A DNA stretch of 64,000 nucleotides from Candidatus Galacturonatibacter soehngenii (GTDB lineage: Bacteria > Bacillota > Clostridia > Lachnospirales > Lachnospiraceae). Each line of letters opens with the position of its first letter. Position 1 is the first letter of the stretch. This document shows positions 7,829 to 57,675 of this stretch, piece by piece. The DNA is taken from contig NZ_WAGX01000005.1 in the NCBI RefSeq assembly GCF_008830185.1, positions 372,001 through 436,000 on the forward strand, given 5' to 3'. The position numbers were made by a program, and so were the translations under genes. Below the pieces are notes generated by a model. It searched no databases and had not been told where the DNA came from. It saw only the letters and a program-made list of their open reading frames with translations.

Positions 7829-9994
7829 CTATTTCTCTATTTTAAAAGACTCTACCATTTCATTTAAATCCGCAGTAGAATATTCTAAGCTTTCAATTAC
7901 CTTAGAAAGCTTTCCTGTTTGTTTATTGATATAAGATACCAACTCTAATGCTTCTTTGCTGCTTGTTTCTCCACGAATTGAATTTTCTTCATTTTGCTTT
8001 GCCATCATCAATATATTACTTCTAACTTCATTCATCAACACAGATTGTTCTGACATGGTTTCTAAGATATATGATATCGTTTTTGATATATCAATGACAA
8101 GGCTTACCGCCTTCATACTTTCTGTAGAATTTTCAATACTCGTCTTCACTTTATTTTCTATCGCCATGAAGCTAGCATTCGTTTGATTGATTTCATTTTG
8201 AATGGTATGAATCAGTCCTTCTATTACAGTAGTTGCCTCATTCGTTCCTTCTGATAGACTTTTAATCTCTTGTGCAACTACCGCAAATCCTTTTCCTACT
8301 TCTCCTGCACGAGCTGCCTCAATCGATGCATTTAAAGCTAATAGACTCGTTTGTTTGCTAATTCGATTAATGGTACTAATAATATTGGTAATCTCTAAGG
8401 ATTCCTTTTCCAACGATGATATGCTTCCCATTGCTTTTACCATGGCATGTTCTAGTTCTTGATTTACAAGATTTGCCTCTTGTTGAACTTTAACTGGATC
8501 ATTTTTAAAAACAGTAGCACTTGCCGTTTTTTCTTTCATTGTTTCAACCAAATGACTTAATTCATTATTTTCTAAACAATCTGCTATCTTATTCACTTCT
8601 ATTTGCGTATTATGAAATAATTGATTTTGTTCCATCGCATTATTTGATAAGGTATGGACCATTTCTTCTATACTTCTCATACTATTTTGAATCTTTTGAT
8701 TCGAATTTGACACTGTTGTCACTGTTTTTTGAGATGCCTTTAAGGAGTTTTTAACCCGAATTATCATATTCATTTGATTGCTTATAAATTTATTGAACCA
8801 TCGGATTAGCTGACCTATCTCATTGGTGGAATCCATTGGCAGACGCTTGGTTAAGTCTCCTTCTCCCTCAGCAATATCCCATAAAGTGTTGGTTACGTTA
8901 TTGAGTGGGGTTACGATTGTTTTTTTGCATATAGCATAAGTGACGAAAATGGTATAAAGGATTATGATTCCTCCTGATAGTAATTGATTCGATAAAAAAG
9001 AATCCAATACGTATTGAACCAATAAAGAGGAAGACGCCAAAATACCAAGATAGATTGGAATTCTTCGGCTCAAATGAGAATAGTGATAAATATCTTCAAT
9101 ATCTCCTTCACACATCATACCCCATACTTCATCAGAATAAGGTGGCTTAATAATTGTCCCTTTTCCCCCTACCATGATATGCCTGTAATCTGGATATCCA
9201 GGCCAACAATCAAGATTTTCTTCGTTATGTATTGTATTTTGAACCCCTTGATGAAGCTTACCAGTAGCTGGGTCGGTAAAAATAACTTCGAATTCTGTAT
9301 GATCTTTTATTTTAACAATATCCCAATGCTTTGTTTTGATACCATCTTTTAGATTATCTCCCAAAGAAAAAGTTTGGTCTTCAAACCGACTTCGTGAGAT
9401 TGCGGTCCCTGGCTCGATTCCTCTATTGCTTTGAATCATAAATAAATAATTATCACCAGAATCTTTATAAATATGGGTATCCTCCTCTTGAATCACGTTG
9501 CTCATATCATCGTTTAATACCCTTGCCAGTAAAATATATAGTTGCCCATTTATCTCAAGGGGAGTGGAAAAAAGTAAGGTTACTTCATCAAAAAAAGGTT
9601 TTTGTTTCAAATCTATATCAAGTGTTGCCTTATCGCAATATGGACCATACATATAATTTTCATTCTTGATTCCCTTTTTTATATTAGGAAACTCTGAAAA
9701 ATCATTCCCAATGTGCCTTGTAAAGGAAGATGCAATGACCTTTCCACTTACATCACATAAAAAAACTTCTATCATTGTCTGTGACCTTTTTTGCGAATCA
9801 TTTAAAACTTCTTGAATGATTTGCGCAGTTCCTTGTGATGATATCAACGTCCTTTTTACTACATCTAGCTGGAGCCAGCAATCTTTAAACCAGTTATAAA
9901 GGGCTGCCTTTCTTCCATTAGAAATACCTTCAAAAATTTGCTCTGCCTGTTTTCTTTTATGTCTGTTTGCGGCATATCTAAGTTTTTCTCTCAT
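7829..9994 (-). CDS. Methyl-accepting chemotaxis protein with N-terminal Cache-like region before the membrane hairpin
   Basis: 721-residue chemoreceptor. The first 300 residues look like a Cache-type sensor ([19 protein letters not shown] near residue 78) but have no leading transmembrane helix; the N-terminus is strongly basic. The only two membrane segments are adjacent (about 311-331 and 338-356), followed by HAMP (about 357-410) and a full MCP signalling hairpin with [20 protein letters not shown]. The sensor region would therefore be cytoplasmic if the topology is as it appears, unlike classical receptors. The gene stands alone, with a GGGAGAAAT-type ribosome site upstream of the ATG at 9994. 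The ligand is unknown. Confidence 0.88.
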
Positions 9995-39530: not shown

Positions 39531-40205
39531 ATGCTTGACAAAGAGGCTCTGGATTATGTGACATCTCGCTTAAGCTTTTGGGATAAACTTGACAGTGATG
39601 AAAAAAATATACTTTCAAACAATATAACAAAGATTAACTACCGTAAAGGTAGTAAACTATATAGTAAAAATGGAGAGTGCTTAGGTGTACTTCTCGTTCA
39701 TACGGGTGAGTTACGTGTTTATATCTTATCAGAGGATGGTCGTGACGTTACTTTATATCGAATACTAGAGGGGGATTTATGTGTTTTATCTGCTTCTTGT
39801 GTTTTAAATAGCATTACTTTTGATGTAGAAATTGAAGCAGAGGTTGATACCGAAGTTTATTTATTAAATATTCAAGCTTTTAGTAAGCTTGCTAGCCAGA
39901 ATATATATGTAGAAAATTTTGCATATAAGAATGCAATTGAACGTTTTTCTGATGTAATGTGGTCAATGGAACAAATATTGTTTATGCGCTTTGATAAGCG
40001 ACTTGCCATTTTTTTGCTGGATGAAATGGCAAAAAATAATTCTTATGACTTAAACTTAACACAAGAACAAATTGCCAAATATGTGGGAAGTGCAAGAGAA
40101 GTGGTTTCAAGAATGTTAAAGGTATTTCAATCACAAGGAATACTAGAGCAATCCAGAGGGGCAATTCATATCATTGATCGAGATAAATTAATGGCACTTA
40201 TATAA
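39531..40205 (+). CDS. Crp/Fnr-family transcriptional regulator
   Basis: 224 residues. A cyclic-nucleotide-binding-like fold (about 15-140) without the Fe-S cysteine cluster of FNR; the cAMP-binding residues are not conserved, so the effector is unknown. The C-terminal winged helix (about 170-220) contains LTQEQIAKYVGSAREVVSRMLKVFQ; its R-E-x-x-x-R recognition-helix pattern equals that of CRP (Arg180, Glu181, Arg185), which reads TGTGA. Perfect TGTGA-N5-TCACA palindromes lie at the nearby ccdA and trxA promoters, so this gene is their likely regulator. GGAGG lies before the ATG. Confidence 0.88.
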   Translation: MLDKEALDYVTSRLSFWDKLDSDEKNILSNNITKINYRKGSKLYSKNGECLGVLLVHTGELRVYILSEDGRDVTLYRILEGDLCVLSASCVLNSITFDVEIEAEVDTEVYLLNIQAFSKLASQNIYVENFAYKNAIERFSDVMWSMEQILFMRFDKRLAIFLLDEMAKNNSYDLNLTQEQIAKYVGSAREVVSRMLKVFQSQGILEQSRGAIHIIDRDKLMALI

Positions 40206-41749: not shown

Positions 41750-41790
41750 ATTATAAAGATAATTTCATTTATCTCTGTGACTATATCACA
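41750..41790 (-). promoter_or_regulatory. CRP-type site and promoter for the ccdA unit
   Basis: The palindrome TGTGACTATATCACA (41776-41790) lies upstream of a minus-strand TATAAT (41755-41750). The predicted start near 41743 puts the site centre at about -40, the classical class II activator position. No good -35 is present, as expected for an activated promoter. The site matches the recognition helix of the nearby Crp/Fnr regulator. Confidence 0.6.
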
Positions 41791-41879: not shown

Positions 41880-42191
41880 TTATTGAATCATTGCTAAAAT
41901 ATTTTGTTTGGATTGAACTCCAACTGCACTTTGTACTACTTTTCCATCTTTGATTACAACCAAAGTAGGAATACTCATTACGTTGTATTTTTGAGCCAAA
42001 TCACGCTCTTCGTCCACATTCACTTTACCAACTTTTGCCGAATCTCCTAATTCCTCTGCTACCTCATCTACCACTGGACCAACCATTCTACATGGTCCAC
42101 ACCAATCTGCCCAAAAATCTAATAAAACTGGTTTATCGGATTGCATTACTTCTGAATCGAAATTATTTTTTGTTATTTTTAGTACACTCAT
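41880..42191 (-). CDS. trxA: Thioredoxin
   Basis: 103-residue cytoplasmic thioredoxin with the active site in FWADWCGPCRMVGPV (Cys about 31 and 34) and the cis-Pro region SIPTLVVIKDG. Standard length. It reduces protein disulfides and would supply electrons to the CcdA part of the neighbouring fusion protein. The ribosome site AAAGGAG precedes the ATG. A CRP-type palindrome and candidate -10 lie 50-90 bases upstream, inside the left end of the tandem duplication. Confidence 0.95.
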   Translation of the reverse strand: MSVLKITKNNFDSEVMQSDKPVLLDFWADWCGPCRMVGPVVDEVAEELGDSAKVGKVNVDEERDLAQKYNVMSIPTLVVIKDGKVVQSAVGVQSKQNILAMIQ

Positions 42192-42237
42192 ATGAATTCT
42201 CCTTTGTCAATCATTTTATTTAATTTGTCCTACTTAT

Positions 42238-42279
42238 ATTTTAATATATTTCAGTACGTTTTTCTGTGATTTAGTCACA
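42238..42279 (-). promoter_or_regulatory. CRP-type site and promoter for trxA
   Basis: The palindrome TGTGATTTAGTCACA (42265-42279) lies 29 bp, centre to first base, from a minus-strand TAAAAT (42243-42238), nearly the same spacing as at the ccdA site. Overlapping TATATT is an alternative -10. Entirely inside duplication copy 1. Confidence 0.5.
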
Positions 42280-42319
42280 TAAAATTCAATTGTATGATTA
42301 CGATTTAAACCTTTAGACA

Positions 42320-42868
42320 CTACTTCATGTGGGGTTTTATTAATTTAACGGTATAGGTTAGTATAATAAACAAAATGATTGTATCAATTGGCCACATAAT
42401 CAGATTCTTAATTACTCTGGCTGAAATCAATATCATAAATCCTTTGCCATAAAGTATACTTAGCCAAATTGTATTAAGAATACAGTTTACGATTACTTTA
42501 TCAACCAAACCTGCAATTGCTATACGTGTCAATTTTACTGGTTTCTTATAAAGAAAGATACCATAAATGATTCCACTTGCAATTTCACTGATTGTAAATC
42601 CTACAAAAAAAGGTCCAGTCGGTCTTACGAAATAACGGATGATATCAAGTGTACCACCAAAAATCCCTCCGACAATAGGTCCAAACAGTAATTCAATTAC
42701 TCTGTTAGGAATTCCCCAAAATCCAATTTTTATGTACGGTCCAATTTGAATGGTTGTAATAAAGGTTAGAATAACAGCAATTGCAGCCATTAACCCACAA
42801 AAAATGACATTTCTTGTTTGTTTAAACTCGTACAAGGTTTCTTTGCTTACTCTTAGTAGCTTATTCAT
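42320..42868 (-). CDS. folT: Folate-family ECF transporter S component (copy 1)
   Basis: 182-residue membrane protein with about six helices, of the FolT family: substrate-specific subunit of an energy-coupling-factor vitamin transporter. IKIGFWGIPNRVIELLFGPIVGGIFGGTLD and YFVRPTGPFFVGFTISEIASGIIYG are typical. I start at ATG 42868, which has AAAGGAGG seven bases upstream; a longer open frame to 43021 would translate the riboswitch. The core ECF ATPases and T component are not in this window, as usual for group II systems. A THF riboswitch precedes it, which fixes folate as the likely substrate. Confidence 0.88.
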   Translation of the reverse strand: MNKLLRVSKETLYEFKQTRNVIFCGLMAAIAVILTFITTIQIGPYIKIGFWGIPNRVIELLFGPIVGGIFGGTLDIIRYFVRPTGPFFVGFTISEIASGIIYGIFLYKKPVKLTRIAIAGLVDKVIVNCILNTIWLSILYGKGFMILISARVIKNLIMWPIDTIILFIILTYTVKLIKPHMK

Positions 42869-42902
42869 AAATTGCCTCCTTTGTTGCAGTAATTTCCTAA
42901 TA

Positions 42903-43040
42903 CTACATAAAAAAGGCAATATAAGCCTCACTATGTAGCAGCGGGATGCGAACTTCGTACCGCAAGTTTTCACTTTTCGTCCAAATGACAACTCCCTGTT
43001 CACTTGGCACTTAACGCACAAAATTCTACTCTGCTTTGTT
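42903..43040 (-). ncRNA. THF (tetrahydrofolate) riboswitch, copy 1
   Basis: In the leader of folT the minus strand reads AGAGTAGAATTTTGTGCGTTAAGTG, in two conserved pieces (AGAGTAGA and GCGTTAAGTG), then AGGGAGTTGTCA, GACGAA, GCGGTACGAA and CGCATCCCGC. These are the consensus blocks of the folT-type THF riboswitch in the right order. Downstream, AGGC-TTATATT-GCCT followed by TTTTTT makes an intrinsic terminator, and CTACATA / TATGTAG can enclose it. Folate excess would thus stop folT transcription. Confidence 0.85.
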
Positions 43041-43098
43041 GTATTGTTTTACCATAGTTGTTCTTGTCCTATGGATTTATACATTTCATTACTTTTGA

Positions 43099-43455
43099 TT
43101 ATTTAATGAAGCTATCAATCGCTTTATTAAGATTATCAATGGCTTCTTTATCTCCTGATTCCACAGCATCTACGATACAGTGTTCCAAATGGTCTTTTAA
43201 GATCACCTTACCTGTATTATTAAGAGCTGCAATAACCGCCGAAAGTTGAATCAAAACTTCACTACAATCTTTTCCTTCTTCTACCATACGACGAACTGAT
43301 TCCAGATGTCCACTGGCACGAGCCAATCGGTTGATAACAGCCTTTGTATGCCTGTGATTATGATTATGCCCTTTGTTTTCCTTATCCATATGACTATGCT
43401 CATATGTAGTACCATCCAATCTTTTATGAATATGTACTTGTTCTCTTTCTTGCAT
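43099..43455 (-). CDS. CsoR-family metal-sensing repressor with His-rich N-terminus (copy 1)
   Basis: 118 residues. The helical DUF156 domain (about 37-118) contains Cys-X24-His-X3-Cys (EGKDC ... KDHLEHC), the Cu(I) ligand set of CsoR, distinguishing it from FrmR/RcnR. A His-rich leader (HIHKRLDGTTYEHSHMDKEN then HNHNHRH) may bind or sense extra metal. No copper-transporting ATPase or chaperone gene is nearby. It lies between folT and an HD hydrolase gene in the duplicated unit. The target operon is unknown; autoregulation is likely. Confidence 0.85.
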   Translation of the reverse strand: MQEREQVHIHKRLDGTTYEHSHMDKENKGHNHNHRHTKAVINRLARASGHLESVRRMVEEGKDCSEVLIQLSAVIAALNNTGKVILKDHLEHCIVDAVESGDKEAIDNLNKAIDSFIK

Positions 43456-43593
43456 AATCTTAATCCCCTCTTATTTGTTGTAGGTAAGCCTTGTGACTTC
43501 TTTCAGTACAAAAATAATGAAATATATATCATTTTAACTAATTTACAAAAAAATAGCAAGAAAAGGTTTGTTAATAGATTTGCTTTGTTATTA

Positions 43594-44097
43594 CTACAAA
43601 GGTTTGATATACATTTGTTCTAATAATTTTTTTCCAGTTTCCGTTCGAAAAAGTTTATTTTTTACCTTTTCAATCGCTACATCATCCATATTATCTTCAT
43701 ACGCATTTACTAGAAAATCTGCTTCCACCAATATCTGATAATCCATTTCCACTATATTGTGATACGTATGATGGTGTGCAATCAAATAGCACACTCTCTC
43801 AATTATTTCACTCTCAATATTCAATGAAGATAATAGTTCTTTTGCCTCTGGAGGGCCCTCAATCTGCTGGTAATTTCCAGCACAACTGTTATACTTTTGT
43901 TCGCTTATTTTAATACCGATGTCGTGTGTAACTGCTGCTATTTCTAAAATGTTTTGTGTTTCTTCTGTTAGATTTTCCATCTCTCCAATGGTTTTTGCAA
44001 AGCTATAAACCTTTAAAAAATGATTGATTCGACGAACATCACCGCTATAATAAGAAATCATAGCATTTATTACTTCACCAATTTTACTTTTTGTCAT
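43594..44097 (-). CDS. HD-domain phosphohydrolase (copy 1)
   Basis: 167 residues, cytoplasmic. The HD motif is visible in order: H (INHFLKVYSFA), HD (AAVTHDIGIK), H-H (LIAHHHTYHN) and D (LVEADFLVN). It resembles small YedJ/YfbR-like metal-dependent nucleotide phosphohydrolases. Substrate unknown. AGGGCAAGG precedes the ATG at 44097. In copy 1 the upstream DNA is the duplicated trxA promoter region, unlike copy 2. Confidence 0.82.
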   Translation of the reverse strand: MTKSKIGEVINAMISYYSGDVRRINHFLKVYSFAKTIGEMENLTEETQNILEIAAVTHDIGIKISEQKYNSCAGNYQQIEGPPEAKELLSSLNIESEIIERVCYLIAHHHTYHNIVEMDYQILVEADFLVNAYEDNMDDVAIEKVKNKLFRTETGKKLLEQMYIKPL

Positions 44098-44145
44098 CCT
44101 TGCCCTCTACTTTCTATCACAAAACAACTAATTTGTCCTACTTAT

Positions 44146-44187
44146 ATTTTAATATATTTCAGTACGTTTTTCTGTGATTTAGTCACA
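44146..44187 (-). promoter_or_regulatory. Duplicated CRP-type promoter now upstream of HD gene copy 1
   Basis: Exact second copy of the trxA promoter and its palindrome (44173-44187). Because of the tandem junction, it now points into the HD gene of copy 1 (start 44097), about 50 bases upstream of it, instead of trxA. Confidence 0.5.
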
Positions 44188-44227
44188 TAAAATTCAATTG
44201 TATGATTACGATTTAAACCTTTAGACA

Positions 44228-44776
44228 CTACTTCATGTGGGGTTTTATTAATTTAACGGTATAGGTTAGTATAATAAACAAAATGATTGTATCAATTGGC
44301 CACATAATCAGATTCTTAATTACTCTGGCTGAAATCAATATCATAAATCCTTTGCCATAAAGTATACTTAGCCAAATTGTATTAAGAATACAGTTTACGA
44401 TTACTTTATCAACCAAACCTGCAATTGCTATACGTGTCAATTTTACTGGTTTCTTATAAAGAAAGATACCATAAATGATTCCACTTGCAATTTCACTGAT
44501 TGTAAATCCTACAAAAAAAGGTCCAGTCGGTCTTACGAAATAACGGATGATATCAAGTGTACCACCAAAAATCCCTCCGACAATAGGTCCAAACAGTAAT
44601 TCAATTACTCTGTTAGGAATTCCCCAAAATCCAATTTTTATGTACGGTCCAATTTGAATGGTTGTAATAAAGGTTAGAATAACAGCAATTGCAGCCATTA
44701 ACCCACAAAAAATGACATTTCTTGTTTGTTTAAACTCGTACAAGGTTTCTTTGCTTACTCTTAGTAGCTTATTCAT
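44228..44776 (-). CDS. folT: Folate-family ECF transporter S component (copy 2)
   Basis: Identical in sequence to the 42320-42868 gene, including its start codon (ATG 44776, AAAGGAGG upstream) and riboswitch leader. Same predicted role: membrane substrate-binding subunit for folate uptake through a shared ECF module. The second copy would double folT dosage under the same THF control. Confidence 0.88.
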   Translation of the reverse strand: MNKLLRVSKETLYEFKQTRNVIFCGLMAAIAVILTFITTIQIGPYIKIGFWGIPNRVIELLFGPIVGGIFGGTLDIIRYFVRPTGPFFVGFTISEIASGIIYGIFLYKKPVKLTRIAIAGLVDKVIVNCILNTIWLSILYGKGFMILISARVIKNLIMWPIDTIILFIILTYTVKLIKPHMK

Positions 44777-44810
44777 AAATTGCCTCCTTTGTTGCAGTAA
44801 TTTCCTAATA

Positions 44811-44948
44811 CTACATAAAAAAGGCAATATAAGCCTCACTATGTAGCAGCGGGATGCGAACTTCGTACCGCAAGTTTTCACTTTTCGTCCAAATGACAAC
44901 TCCCTGTTCACTTGGCACTTAACGCACAAAATTCTACTCTGCTTTGTT
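44811..44948 (-). ncRNA. THF riboswitch, copy 2
   Basis: Exact copy of the element at 42903-43040, with the same conserved blocks (GCGTTAAGTG, AGGGAGTTGTCA, CGCATCCCGC) and the same AGGC/GCCT-T6 terminator before folT copy 2. Confidence 0.85.
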
Positions 44949-45006
44949 GTATTGTTTTACCATAGTTGTTCTTGTCCTATGGATTTATACATTTCATTAC
45001 TTTTGA

Positions 45007-45363
45007 TTATTTAATGAAGCTATCAATCGCTTTATTAAGATTATCAATGGCTTCTTTATCTCCTGATTCCACAGCATCTACGATACAGTGTTCCAAATGG
45101 TCTTTTAAGATCACCTTACCTGTATTATTAAGAGCTGCAATAACCGCCGAAAGTTGAATCAAAACTTCACTACAATCTTTTCCTTCTTCTACCATACGAC
45201 GAACTGATTCCAGATGTCCACTGGCACGAGCCAATCGGTTGATAACAGCCTTTGTATGCCTGTGATTATGATTATGCCCTTTGTTTTCCTTATCCATATG
45301 ACTATGCTCATATGTAGTACCATCCAATCTTTTATGAATATGTACTTGTTCTCTTTCTTGCAT
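45007..45363 (-). CDS. CsoR-family metal-sensing repressor (copy 2)
   Basis: Identical to the 43099-43455 protein, with Cys-X24-His-X3-Cys copper ligands and a His-rich leader. AGGGG lies before the ATG at 45363. Two identical repressor genes would double the repressor level, with no other change visible. Confidence 0.85.
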   Translation of the reverse strand: MQEREQVHIHKRLDGTTYEHSHMDKENKGHNHNHRHTKAVINRLARASGHLESVRRMVEEGKDCSEVLIQLSAVIAALNNTGKVILKDHLEHCIVDAVESGDKEAIDNLNKAIDSFIK

Positions 45364-45501
45364 AATCTTAATCCCCTCTTATTTGTTGTAGGTAAGCCTT
45401 GTGACTTCTTTCAGTACAAAAATAATGAAATATATATCATTTTAACTAATTTACAAAAAAATAGCAAGAAAAGGTTTGTTAATAGATTTGCTTTGTTATT
45501 A

Positions 45502-46005
45502 CTACAAAGGTTTGATATACATTTGTTCTAATAATTTTTTTCCAGTTTCCGTTCGAAAAAGTTTATTTTTTACCTTTTCAATCGCTACATCATCCATATT
45601 ATCTTCATACGCATTTACTAGAAAATCTGCTTCCACCAATATCTGATAATCCATTTCCACTATATTGTGATACGTATGATGGTGTGCAATCAAATAGCAC
45701 ACTCTCTCAATTATTTCACTCTCAATATTCAATGAAGATAATAGTTCTTTTGCCTCTGGAGGGCCCTCAATCTGCTGGTAATTTCCAGCACAACTGTTAT
45801 ACTTTTGTTCGCTTATTTTAATACCGATGTCGTGTGTAACTGCTGCTATTTCTAAAATGTTTTGTGTTTCTTCTGTTAGATTTTCCATCTCTCCAATGGT
45901 TTTTGCAAAGCTATAAACCTTTAAAAAATGATTGATTCGACGAACATCACCGCTATAATAAGAAATCATAGCATTTATTACTTCACCAATTTTACTTTTT
46001 GTCAT
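45502..46005 (-). CDS. HD-domain phosphohydrolase (copy 2)
   Basis: Identical to the 43594-44097 protein, with the same HD residues. This copy keeps what must be the original upstream sequence (46039 onwards), so it represents the ancestral arrangement, whereas copy 1 has gained the trxA-type promoter region. Function as described for copy 1. Confidence 0.82.
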   Translation of the reverse strand: MTKSKIGEVINAMISYYSGDVRRINHFLKVYSFAKTIGEMENLTEETQNILEIAAVTHDIGIKISEQKYNSCAGNYQQIEGPPEAKELLSSLNIESEIIERVCYLIAHHHTYHNIVEMDYQILVEADFLVNAYEDNMDDVAIEKVKNKLFRTETGKKLLEQMYIKPL

Positions 46006-46136
46006 CCTTGCCCTCTACTTTCTATCACAAAACAACTATTTTAACTGATAACTATTACTATTATACATACCGTACATACAGATGGCAAGAGTGAAGAAAT
46101 AGAGAAACTTTAATTACCACGACACTTTTGTTCCAA

Positions 46137-46694: not shown

Positions 46695-47272
46695 AATCTT
46701 TTACCACTTCTTTTTCTCTTCTTTTGATATTCATTTATTCCTCCAGTGAAAGCTGCTCCAATAATGATAAAGGCTACATTTATCTGAAAAAGAAAGGACG
46801 CTAAAAAAGCAGCTACCAAGACAATATAAAATGTGTTATTTCTTTCTTCCTTGCCTTCTTTTACCATGTCGAGTACAACCGATAAAATCACCGCAGCAAC
46901 TCCTGCCTGCATGCCTTTTAACATACCATTGATATAAGTGTTTTTTATGAAAGAAGAGTATATCGTAGAAATTATGGATAATATGAAAAATGGTGGTAAA
47001 ATAGTCGCAAGAATTGTTACAATTGAACCAACTACCCCTTTTAATCGATACCCAACTAATATAGCAACATTTACTGCCAACGGTCCTGGTGATGCTTGAG
47101 CAATCGCTATCAAATCAATCATTTCCTCCTCATCAATCCAGTGATACCTATCTACAAATCTTTTTCTTAGTAAGGGTACAATCACATATCCCCCTCCAAA
47201 GGTAAATAAGCTGATATAAAAGGTCGACCAAAATAACGTTGCATAAAATTTCAAATTTTCTCTCACAATCAT
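46691..47272 (-). CDS. Chromate transporter subunit 1 (short-chain CHR)
   Basis: 193-residue partner of the downstream CHR protein, with FYISLFTFGGGYVIVPLLRKRFV and ASPGPLAVNVAILVGYRLKGVVGSIV. GGAGG lies only two bases before ATG 47272, so GTG 47266 (eight bases from it) may be the true start, giving a protein two residues shorter. A codon at 47281 is TTG within the ribosome site and is rejected. Together the two genes encode the heterodimeric form of a full-length ChrA. Confidence 0.87.
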   Translation of the reverse strand: MIVRENLKFYATLFWSTFYISLFTFGGGYVIVPLLRKRFVDRYHWIDEEEMIDLIAIAQASPGPLAVNVAILVGYRLKGVVGSIVTILATILPPFFILSIISTIYSSFIKNTYINGMLKGMQAGVAAVILSVVLDMVKEGKEERNNTFYIVLVAAFLASFLFQINVAFIIIGAAFTGGINEYQKKRKRSGKRL

Positions 47273-47315
47273 TACCTCCAAATATCTCTATTATAATACT
47301 TGTCGATTCATAAGT

Positions 47316-47432
47316 AAAATTGTATACGTTAATTACATGATAGTCTTCTTTTCTTAAAACTCTACAGGCATTACTACTTCTTCCTCCAGACTGGCACATA
47401 AGGACAAAGTTATTTGTGACTGAATCACAAAA
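47316..47432 (-). pseudogene. Rhodanese-domain remnant
   Basis: A minus-strand frame reads CDSVTNNFVLMCQSGGRSSN, then ACRVLRKEDYHVINVYNF. The CQSGGRS loop with the active Cys and the following helix match the rhodanese fold. The rest of the domain is absent on both sides, and the frame then runs out of family similarity, so this is a fragment, not a functional gene. Confidence 0.5.
47415..47429. promoter_or_regulatory. Third TGTGA-N5-TCACA palindrome
   Basis: TGTGACTGAATCACA has the same form as the sites upstream of ccdA and trxA and lies about 145 bases upstream of the chromate transporter. No -10 box sits at the matching distance, and it overlaps the rhodanese remnant, so its role is less certain. 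Confidence 0.35.
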
Positions 47433-47467
47433 ATAATCGGTTACAAAACATTCGTTTTGTAACCGAT
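47431..47467 (-). terminator. Terminator after PBP gene
   Basis: A perfect 14-bp stem on the minus strand, ATCGGTTACAAAAC - GAAT - GTTTTGTAACCGAT, followed by TATTTTTG, 12 bases after the PBP stop codon. Confidence 0.8.
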
Positions 47468-47478
47468 ATTGGTCTATC

Positions 47479-49680
47479 TTATTCGGAAAGAGAGCCAAAT
47501 GCTTCGCTAACCTTTTGACTCATCTCAGCTCTTAAGGTATCGCTAGAAATTTGATTTACCTTTATCATTGCATTGTCATACATTGAATTTGCATAAGCTG
47601 GCCAGTTTGGATCGGCCGTATTAATGGCATACATATTATTTATAATCTCTTGAACGGATTCGGCAACAGCTAAATCGCTATCTGTTGCATCATCATAATT
47701 AGACAACTCTTCTTCATTTTGCTCAAAAGTACCATCAAAGCTTTTAGCCGGTAAATCTTTGATATACTCACTCATTGCTTTGTTCCAGATTTTTAATGGG
47801 TAGGAGGCTCCGTATAGTCCTGTCATAGCCTTTGGATTGTCATATCCAACCCACACTGAAATCGTATAATACGGTGTCACACCACTAAACCAACCATCTT
47901 TATTGTCATTTGTTGTTCCTGTTTTACCTGCTGCTTGTGTCTTACTTGACCATCCAGCTGACCTAGCAGTACCTTTGGTAATAACACCTTTTAAAACATC
48001 AATCATTCCAATCGCTGCATTTTCTGTATAAACCTGTCTGGTCTGTCTTTTGTCTTCATACACTTCTTTTCCGTCTTTATCTATGATTGATACAATGCAA
48101 TCTGGTTGTGTATACACTCCTTTGTTCACGAGTGTATTATAAGCGCTTGCCATTTCAACGGTAGATACACCATAAGTAAGTCCTCCAAGGGATGCAGATT
48201 CATAAAAATCATTTGGTACTATTTTTGCAAAATTCATACTCTGTAAATAGCTTAATGCCTTTTTCGGTGTGATTTCTAGCATTAGTCCCCATGCCGCACC
48301 ATTTTTTGATTGTTCGACGGCGTTACGAAACTCAATCGGACTTCCTGTCACTTCTTTTGATGCTTTCCATGTGTCAATATTAATGTCCGTAATTGTACTG
48401 TCTGGATTATAACCCATCTCTAAAGCAGGCGCATAAACTATAAGCGGCTTTATTGCACTTCCTGGCTGTCGATAACTTTGGTAAGCTCGATTTAAATATG
48501 TTGTAATCTCTTGAGACCTACCACCTATGATTGCAACTACTTTATTGGTCTCATTGTCAATACAAGTTGCACTACTTTGCAACGAATAGATTCCATTCTC
48601 ATTCACATCCTCACTAAAGCTTAAAGCCGAGTCAATGGATTCTTGCAAAATTTCTTGCATATTCGAGTTGAGTGAAGTATGGATTTGATATCCACTCTTA
48701 TACCATTCATTTCTTGCCTCTTCATAACTTACATTATAATTTTCAAGATATGTATTGTAAGCATCCATGCTATCAAATACATATTGGAATTCAAATCCAT
48801 TGCGTTCCATAAAGTATCTGGTCACACAATCGATCGCGTAGCTTGCTGCATAAGGATTGGATTCAATGTTTTTAGCACTCATATCTAAAACAATATCTTC
48901 TGTAGTTGCAGCTTGATAATCCGATTCCTTAATATAACCCATTTCCTTCATGTCTTTTAAAATTTTATCTCTTCTTGTTAAAGCATTATCTGGGTTCTTA
49001 ATCGGGTCATAGTAGGTCGGCGAATTAGGAATTGCACATAAATAGGCCATTTGACTCAAACTTAATTCTGATGCGGACTTATTAAAATATCCTTTTGCTG
49101 CAGCTTCAATTCCATAATAACCATTCATGTAATAAATATTATTCACATAATATTCCATAATCTGCTTTTTTGTGTAATGCTTTGTTAATTCCATTGCATA
49201 ACACATTTCTTTTAATTTTCTCTCCAATGTAACTTCACTGGTAATATAGACTTTACGAACCAACTGTTGGGTAATCGTACTTGCACCATGCATTTGTTCT
49301 CCGCCAGTACGAACGTAATTATAAATAACACGTAGAATTCCTTTTAAATCCACACCACTGTTCGTCCAAAAAGTCCTATCCTCAATGGCTATGAATGCAT
49401 TGATGACCTCTTTTGGTATTTCATCGTAGCTTAAATAATTCGTATCTTTTTCGTTCTTAATTTTCTTAATGATATTACCTTCATCATCATATATATATCC
49501 CGTTAAAGAAGAATAAAAAGCTTCATCTCCCATGGATTCGATATCTTGCTTTGCTTTTGTTGTATATTCTTGATATTTTGGAAAAAGTGCAAAGAATGGT
49601 ACTAATATAAACACTATAATTAAAATAGTACCAATTATAAACCCTCTTCTAAAAGCACGTATGTATGTTTTTTTCTTCAT
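47479..49680 (-). CDS. Bifunctional penicillin-binding protein (class A, PBP1A-type)
   Basis: 733-residue membrane-anchored peptidoglycan synthase. One N-terminal helix (about 13-33), a GT51 glycosyltransferase domain (about 70-240; EDRTFWTNSGVDLKGILR, GASTITQQLVRKVY), and a transpeptidase domain (about 370-650) with the serine in RQPGSAIKPL (SxxK), SKNGA (SxN) and KTGTTND (KTGT). Length and order are standard. A Glu/Asp-rich C-terminal tail follows. Single gene with its own terminator. It polymerises glycan and cross-links peptides; a vegetative or sporulation role cannot be told apart by sequence. Confidence 0.93.
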   Translation of the reverse strand: MKKKTYIRAFRRGFIIGTILIIVFILVPFFALFPKYQEYTTKAKQDIESMGDEAFYSSLTGYIYDDEGNIIKKIKNEKDTNYLSYDEIPKEVINAFIAIEDRTFWTNSGVDLKGILRVIYNYVRTGGEQMHGASTITQQLVRKVYITSEVTLERKLKEMCYAMELTKHYTKKQIMEYYVNNIYYMNGYYGIEAAAKGYFNKSASELSLSQMAYLCAIPNSPTYYDPIKNPDNALTRRDKILKDMKEMGYIKESDYQAATTEDIVLDMSAKNIESNPYAASYAIDCVTRYFMERNGFEFQYVFDSMDAYNTYLENYNVSYEEARNEWYKSGYQIHTSLNSNMQEILQESIDSALSFSEDVNENGIYSLQSSATCIDNETNKVVAIIGGRSQEITTYLNRAYQSYRQPGSAIKPLIVYAPALEMGYNPDSTITDINIDTWKASKEVTGSPIEFRNAVEQSKNGAAWGLMLEITPKKALSYLQSMNFAKIVPNDFYESASLGGLTYGVSTVEMASAYNTLVNKGVYTQPDCIVSIIDKDGKEVYEDKRQTRQVYTENAAIGMIDVLKGVITKGTARSAGWSSKTQAAGKTGTTNDNKDGWFSGVTPYYTISVWVGYDNPKAMTGLYGASYPLKIWNKAMSEYIKDLPAKSFDGTFEQNEEELSNYDDATDSDLAVAESVQEIINNMYAINTADPNWPAYANSMYDNAMIKVNQISSDTLRAEMSQKVSEAFGSLSE

Positions 49681-57397: not shown

Positions 57398-57560
57398 AAA
57401 AAAGCGGATAAACTAACTCACTATGAGCTTCGTCATTCGCTTGGTATTCTCCTATGGGATTAGCTGACGGGTTAGGGCTTCCAAGTCGCCCTTCAATATT
57501 TCGGATTCACCCCTTAAATAGGTTTTCCCACTACAGTATTTGTATTCGGATTGTTTCACA
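57398..57560 (-). ncRNA. c-di-AMP riboswitch (ydaO/yuaA) with terminator
   Basis: The minus-strand leader of the antiporter carries the ydaO consensus pieces in order: AAGGGGTGAATCCG, AAGGGCGACTTGG, AGCCCTAACCCGTCAGCTAA and CATAGGAGAATACCAAGCGAA. The 3' end, TATCCGCTTTTTT, can pair with AAGCGAATG to form an intrinsic terminator (T-run 57403-57398). High c-di-AMP would switch the antiporter gene off, as seen for other potassium transport genes. Confidence 0.9.
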
Positions 57561-57675
57561 CAGTTTAGCATGGACCGAGTGAATAGTCAAATTGGCGTCT
57601 TTGCAATTAACGAAAAATGTAAATTTCCTTCAAAAAGAGCAAGTTTAAAATCATATGGTGCGGAGAAGTAATGGG

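Follow-up and report, generated by a model that had tools for sequence, protein, structure and literature searches.

A pair of perfectly identical gene blocks side by side in a bacterial genome raises two questions: whether the cell really carries both copies, and what the event that produced them changed besides gene number. An exact repeat of 1.9 kb cannot be due to chance, and a recent duplication is the best reading of it. Here we describe the borders of the repeat, the genes and promoters that it rearranges, its distribution among relatives, and the explanations that compete with a genuine duplication.

Extent and borders of the duplicated unit

The window (the whole stretch of DNA that was analyzed, 64,000 nucleotides) was compared with itself. 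Positions 42221-44130 equal 44129-46038 exactly over 1,910 bases; this is the sole such run at an offset of 1,908, and a mismatch directly flanks it on both sides. The duplicated unit is 1,908 bp long and lies in two head-to-tail copies with intact outer borders, so the arrangement is a direct tandem duplication. The original prediction of a perfect tandem duplication was right in its coordinates and offset, and every base is equal between the copies. A genome search returned the identical 4,101 bases in one piece from the window's own genome (G000; contig C5, 414100-418200), which comprises 4,095,748 bases in 8 contigs and carries the duplicated region on the 1.51-Mb contig C5. Neither border cuts any gene, and all genes of both copies are intact. 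Both borders fall in intergenic leaders. With only about 11% of the window non-coding, two intergenic borders would be somewhat unusual without selection, but the point was noticed post hoc and AT-rich leaders may break more often.

The dinucleotide TA is shared by the outer ends of the repeat (42221-42222 and 46037-46038), as had been reported, and is also present at the seam between the copies (44129-44130), across which the sequence reads CAAAACAACTAATTTGTCC. At least 2 bp are shared by 19% of random breakpoint pairs in the window (P about 0.19); because of this frequency, the TA is at chance level and uninformative on the joining pathway. The 2-bp microhomology that had been proposed is thus present but carries no signal: the seam lacks the homology beyond chance that would be expected of microhomology-mediated duplication, and microhomology was rejected as a pointer to any one pathway. 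An origin mediated by an insertion sequence or transposon was likewise rejected: no direct repeat of at least 30 bp other than the unit itself lies at the borders, and the genes of the unit are folT, csoR and HD. No mobile element or repeat flanking the unit, and no other exact direct repeat of at least 30 bp, was found in the 64-kb window. The seam sequence was not found in viral contigs.

Table 1. Features of the duplicated region and its surroundings (window coordinates).
Feature	Position	Strand	Remarks and basis
Crp/Fnr-family regulator	39531..40205	+	PF13545/PF00027; nearest solved relative 3dv8
trxA (thioredoxin), single copy	41880..42191	-	TIGR01068; start codon 30 bp from left border
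Copy 1 of 1,908-bp unit	42221..44128		Downstream copy by transcription sense, adjoins trxA; exact identity to 44129-46036
Predicted -10 (TAAAAT) of trxA	42238..42243	-	21 nt after box; geometry common to six further promoters in three genomes
TGTGACTAAATCACA box of trxA promoter, parental position	42265..42279	-	TGTGA-N5-TCACA pattern
folT copy 1 (ATG start)	42320..42868	-	TIGR04518; sequence
THF riboswitch copy 1	42937..43035	-	RF01831, 94.9 bits
CsoR/InrS-like repressor copy 1, His-rich N-terminal extension	43099..43455	-	PF02583; solved relatives 6ahx, InrS 5fmn
HD-domain protein copy 1	43594..44097	-	PF01966; 31 bp downstream of seam
Seam	44129..44130		TA common to both parental breakpoints, CAAAACAAC-TA-ATTTGTCC; sequence of three borders
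Copy 2 of 1,908-bp unit	44129..46036		Upstream copy, adjoins chromate transporter genes, shared TA then at 46037-46038; exact identity to copy 1
Duplicated -10 (TAAAAT)	44146..44151	-	Copy of trxA -10
Duplicated TGTGACTAAATCACA box, upstream of HD copy 1	44173..44187	-	Exact pattern match
folT copy 2	44228..44776	-	Identical to copy 1
THF riboswitch copy 2	44845..44943	-	RF01831, 94.9 bits
CsoR/InrS-like repressor copy 2	45007..45363	-	Identical to copy 1
HD-domain protein copy 2, native upstream region kept	45502..46005	-	Identical to copy 1
Best HD promoter-like site, TTGCCA-17-TATAAT, 11/12	46060..46088	-	Consensus match only; outside unit

Genes within and beside the unit

The identities first assigned to the duplicated genes were borne out by profile matches (Table 1). 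FolT is a folate ECF S-component (TIGR04518, 116.6 bits against a cut-off of 60) and is preceded by a THF riboswitch (RF01831); the repressor belongs to the CsoR family (PF02583, 97.6 bits), and the HD-domain protein matches PF01966 (32.6 bits). The TTG start listed for the open reading frame of folT copy 1, at 43021, would run through the riboswitch, and the ATG start was taken instead. The best solved relatives of the repressor are 6ahx and InrS 5fmn; CsoR proteins and the nickel sensor InrS are both among its nearest solved relatives, which do not single out a metal. The protein (43099-43455 and 45007-45363) has a His-rich N-terminal extension, HNHNHRH, and the nickel sensor is its second-best solved relative; judging from these features it may not be a copper sensor. 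The unit is adjoined by trxA on the left and by two chromate-transporter genes, including chrA, on the right. Elsewhere in the window, a c-di-AMP riboswitch (RF00379, 72.1 bits) was observed on the minus strand at 57433-57561.

A predicted promoter carried across the seam

Only 30 bp separate the left border from the start codon of trxA. The unit therefore takes in the predicted trxA promoter, whose box and -10 lie between this border and folT. A TGTGA-N5-TCACA box stands 20-21 nt before a TATAAT-like -10 in seven promoters of three genomes, namely those of trxA and ccdA in this genome, of trxA and ccdA in the sister species G001, and of trxA, ccdA and a rhodanese gene in the sister species G002. 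Because the same spacing of box and -10 precedes trxA, ccdA(-resA) and rhodanese across these genomes, the box is read as a conserved promoter element. Across the 4.1-Mb genome, the pattern TGTGAYWWWRTCACA has just three matches, at ccdA, at trxA and at the duplicate of the trxA site, all within 2.4 kb; a control pattern had 0 matches in the genome, and 0 box matches were expected in the window. Assuming a transcription start about 7 nt past the -10, the center of the box lies near -41.5, the class II position of Crp/Fnr activators. The trxA transcript is expected to start near 42231 and that of the duplicated promoter near 44139, which is about 10 nt short of the seam.

A Crp/Fnr gene lies near the box here, and a relative of this gene occurs within 4 kb of the box in five other genera, in three of which a trxA relative lies alongside. 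Because of this proximity and linkage, the Crp/Fnr-family protein (39531-40205) is the likely regulator that binds the box. The genes preceded by the box could form a small Crp/Fnr-type redox regulon (trxA, ccdA-resA and rhodanese) with a very specific box; no useful description of thioredoxin control by a Crp-type regulator in Lachnospiraceae emerged from a literature search. Boxes were located at 41776-41790, 42265-42279 and 47415-47429 in the window, at 9780 and 10277 in L043, and at 8315, 8901 and 11450 in L044. The frame of the rhodanese gene in the window (47148-47498) retains the middle part alone, and its upstream box has no clear -10; this gene seems decayed, whereas G002 has an intact rhodanese gene with box and TATAAT.

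The predicted consequence of the seam, which the original prediction missed, is a swap of promoters. The trxA box and -10 lie inside the unit and, in the duplicated arrangement, ahead of HD, whereas the best predicted HD promoter, a consensus match (46088-46060), lies past the right border (46038). With the box, the -10 and the expected start within the unit and the HD site outside, copy 1 of HD is predicted to stand behind the trxA promoter and copy 2 to retain the native one. The predicted leader from the captured promoter to HD copy 1 is 42 nt, and the ribosome-binding region of HD is kept. Weak promoter matches, by consensus only, also occur between HD and csoR; csoR may have its own promoter there, in which case the seam would affect HD alone.

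Distribution among relatives

The sister species G001 and G002, which belong to the same genus, each have one folT adjoining one trxA. G001 has the genes in the same order, csoR-folT-trxA, without HD; G002 has trxA-folT, with csoR absent there and an HD relative elsewhere beside his genes. THF riboswitches were detected in 78 of 200 genomes of the family, eight of which have two copies. Only in the window's genome are the two riboswitches neighbors, at a distance of 1,908 bp; each of the other seven has them on separate contigs or 0.86 Mb from each other. Since both sister species have a single folT and no other tandem THF riboswitch occurs among the 78 positive genomes, the duplication is, on this comparison, derived and confined to the lineage of the window's genome. 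The polarity rests on sister species and is compatible both with fixation in the species and with a clone-specific event; a scan of genome contigs with the HD protein, which could have brought up strains of the same species, gave only five relatives at 58-61% identity. The description of the duplication as "very recent" fits the zero differences and the single folT in both sister species; the "very" is not strictly shown, as gene conversion or an assembler can also impose identity.

Proposed event and comparison with known duplications

A single illegitimate tandem duplication with promoter capture is the best explanation of these observations, and we hold it with moderate confidence. The route that we infer is one illegitimate, RecA-independent exchange, involving two sister chromosomes or nascent strands, in which a site immediately ahead of HD became joined to a site immediately ahead of trxA; the product is the 1,908-bp direct tandem duplication. 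Such an event would double the dosage of folT, csoR and HD, and its seam would set HD copy 1 31 bp behind a duplicate trxA promoter. Should this duplicate be active in the way it is at the parental place, HD copy 1 would come under the Crp/Fnr-type box otherwise serving trxA and ccdA-resA, and csoR and folT of copy 1 would perhaps also be transcribed from it by read-through, while copy 2 would keep its native promoter. Most likely, the duplication is an unselected or transiently favored clonal variant, readily collapsed by homologous recombination. Provided that the second copy exists, the case would be a duplication that rewires expression as well as dosage, caught before decay in an organism that probably depends on imported folate.

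Promoter-fusing tandem duplications have long been known, as the account of the Salmonella his fusions (Anderson and Roth 1978) in PMC11111574 indicates, and a tandem duplication activated transferred genes in E. coli (PMC11111574). These cases resemble the present one in being direct tandem duplications whose join point shows little homology or none, in placing a gene behind a promoter from within the unit, and in preserving the parental arrangement in the other copy. They differ in having arisen under laboratory selection and in having switched on a gene that was silent, whereas here the event is known from an assembly and the gene already had a promoter. The patAB duplication of Streptococcus pneumoniae M184, for which read-through, overexpression and instability or loss have been measured (PMC4432121), likewise concerns a transporter locus: at its seam one copy (there copy 2) comes under read-through from a new upstream transcription unit. 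There the read-through comes from a tRNA gene, whereas here it would come from a predicted Crp-box promoter. Unselected duplications at short homologies are common in Salmonella cultures, but the confirmed duplications of that study have at least 11 bp of homology, and a 2-bp junction such as the present one would fail its chimeric-read filter (PMC3411829). The duplication is thus probably a fresh example of an already known class of promoter-capture duplications, and its interest lies mainly in the clean seam.

A second copy or an assembly artefact

The main rival to a single illegitimate duplication is that the genome has one copy, and that the assembler looped or concatenated overlapping contig ends, or wrote a seam from a minority of cells or a small circle as a full copy. 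The structure of the assembly lends this some weight. Seven of the 13 contig ends examined begin directly in sequence common to other contig ends or interiors (0.67-1.7 kb), two more reach such repeats within 0.3 kb, and four contigs have 16S rRNA at an end. Within the 737 kb sampled, no repeat with two contig-internal copies comes near the 1,910-bp one in length: the remaining exact repeats measure about 0.1 kb, apart from a 0.88-kb repeat that has its second copy at a contig end. The assembly is repeat-limited, and repeats of 1.9-kb size are normally not resolved in it. Because it breaks at other long repeats, the copy number rests on the assembler, and one that halts at rRNA and at a 0.9-kb repeat is not expected to separate perfect 1.9-kb neighbors by read overlap. 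Two copies could instead have been written by depth-based loop unrolling, in which case the seam is in the reads and the count is an estimate, or by error. At one contig start, exactly 127 bases are common to another contig before the sequences differ, as would be expected at a vertex of a de Bruijn graph built with k = 127. The perfect identity of the copies and the chance-level overlap of 2 bp also fit a misassembly. A misjoin, however, would fall anywhere, whereas both borders lie in intergenic leaders (the post hoc point noted above). Furthermore, a loop in a de Bruijn graph forms only if some reads span the seam, and assemblers usually unroll such a loop only where depth is in excess, which counts against an artefact. 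A literature search on the behavior of assemblers with tandem duplications gave nothing useful. Overall, the artefact is unlikely but has to be taken seriously, and a real duplication in most cells is considered fairly probable. If the second copy is an artefact, the lesson is that perfect tandem copies in repeat-limited assemblies need a depth check before an adaptive story is built on them.

Selection and the age of the duplication

A real duplication may also have been selected, either for more folate uptake, by way of extra FolT dosage or of a stronger promoter, or for a change in HD or CsoR control; this reading overlaps with the favored one, to which it adds selection. The gene for dihydropteroate synthase (folP, TIGR01496) was not found in the genome of the window or in G002, whereas it is present in G001 and scored above cut-off in 12 of 14 control genomes. 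Because folP was undetected, imported folate probably matters in this organism, and such dependence fits selection for uptake. Each border lies a short distance downstream of a predicted transcription start, so the event would be a promoter fusion and go beyond mere dosage. On the other hand, a THF riboswitch still lies between the captured promoter and folT copy 1, and G002 also lacks a detectable folP yet has a single folT. Selection for folate uptake, suggested in the original prediction, is thus possible, but there is no positive evidence for selection; metal sensing, the other cause suggested there, has no support beyond the presence of the gene. We regard a selected duplication as improbable.

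More doubtful still is an older duplication in which gene conversion or repeated unequal crossing-over has maintained identity. Tandem repeats of 1.9 kb recombine readily, and identity alone gives no date. Neither sister species has the duplication, however, and under conversion one would not expect perfect homology to persist to the last base of both borders, whereas the match here ends exactly at the TA. Least probable of all is an adaptive capture, in which a folate-dependent bacterium would have set a second HD-csoR-folT under a thioredoxin/Crp redox promoter in one step, by joining two transcription-start regions, and so coupled folate uptake or metal control to redox.

Two further features of the assembly were observed. 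Contig C8 (379 kb) has the same 104 bases at its two ends (L053 1-104 and L055 19897-20000), and it may therefore represent a second, circular replicon. The length of contig C2, exactly 140,000 bases, suggests that it was cut and does not stop at a natural contig end.
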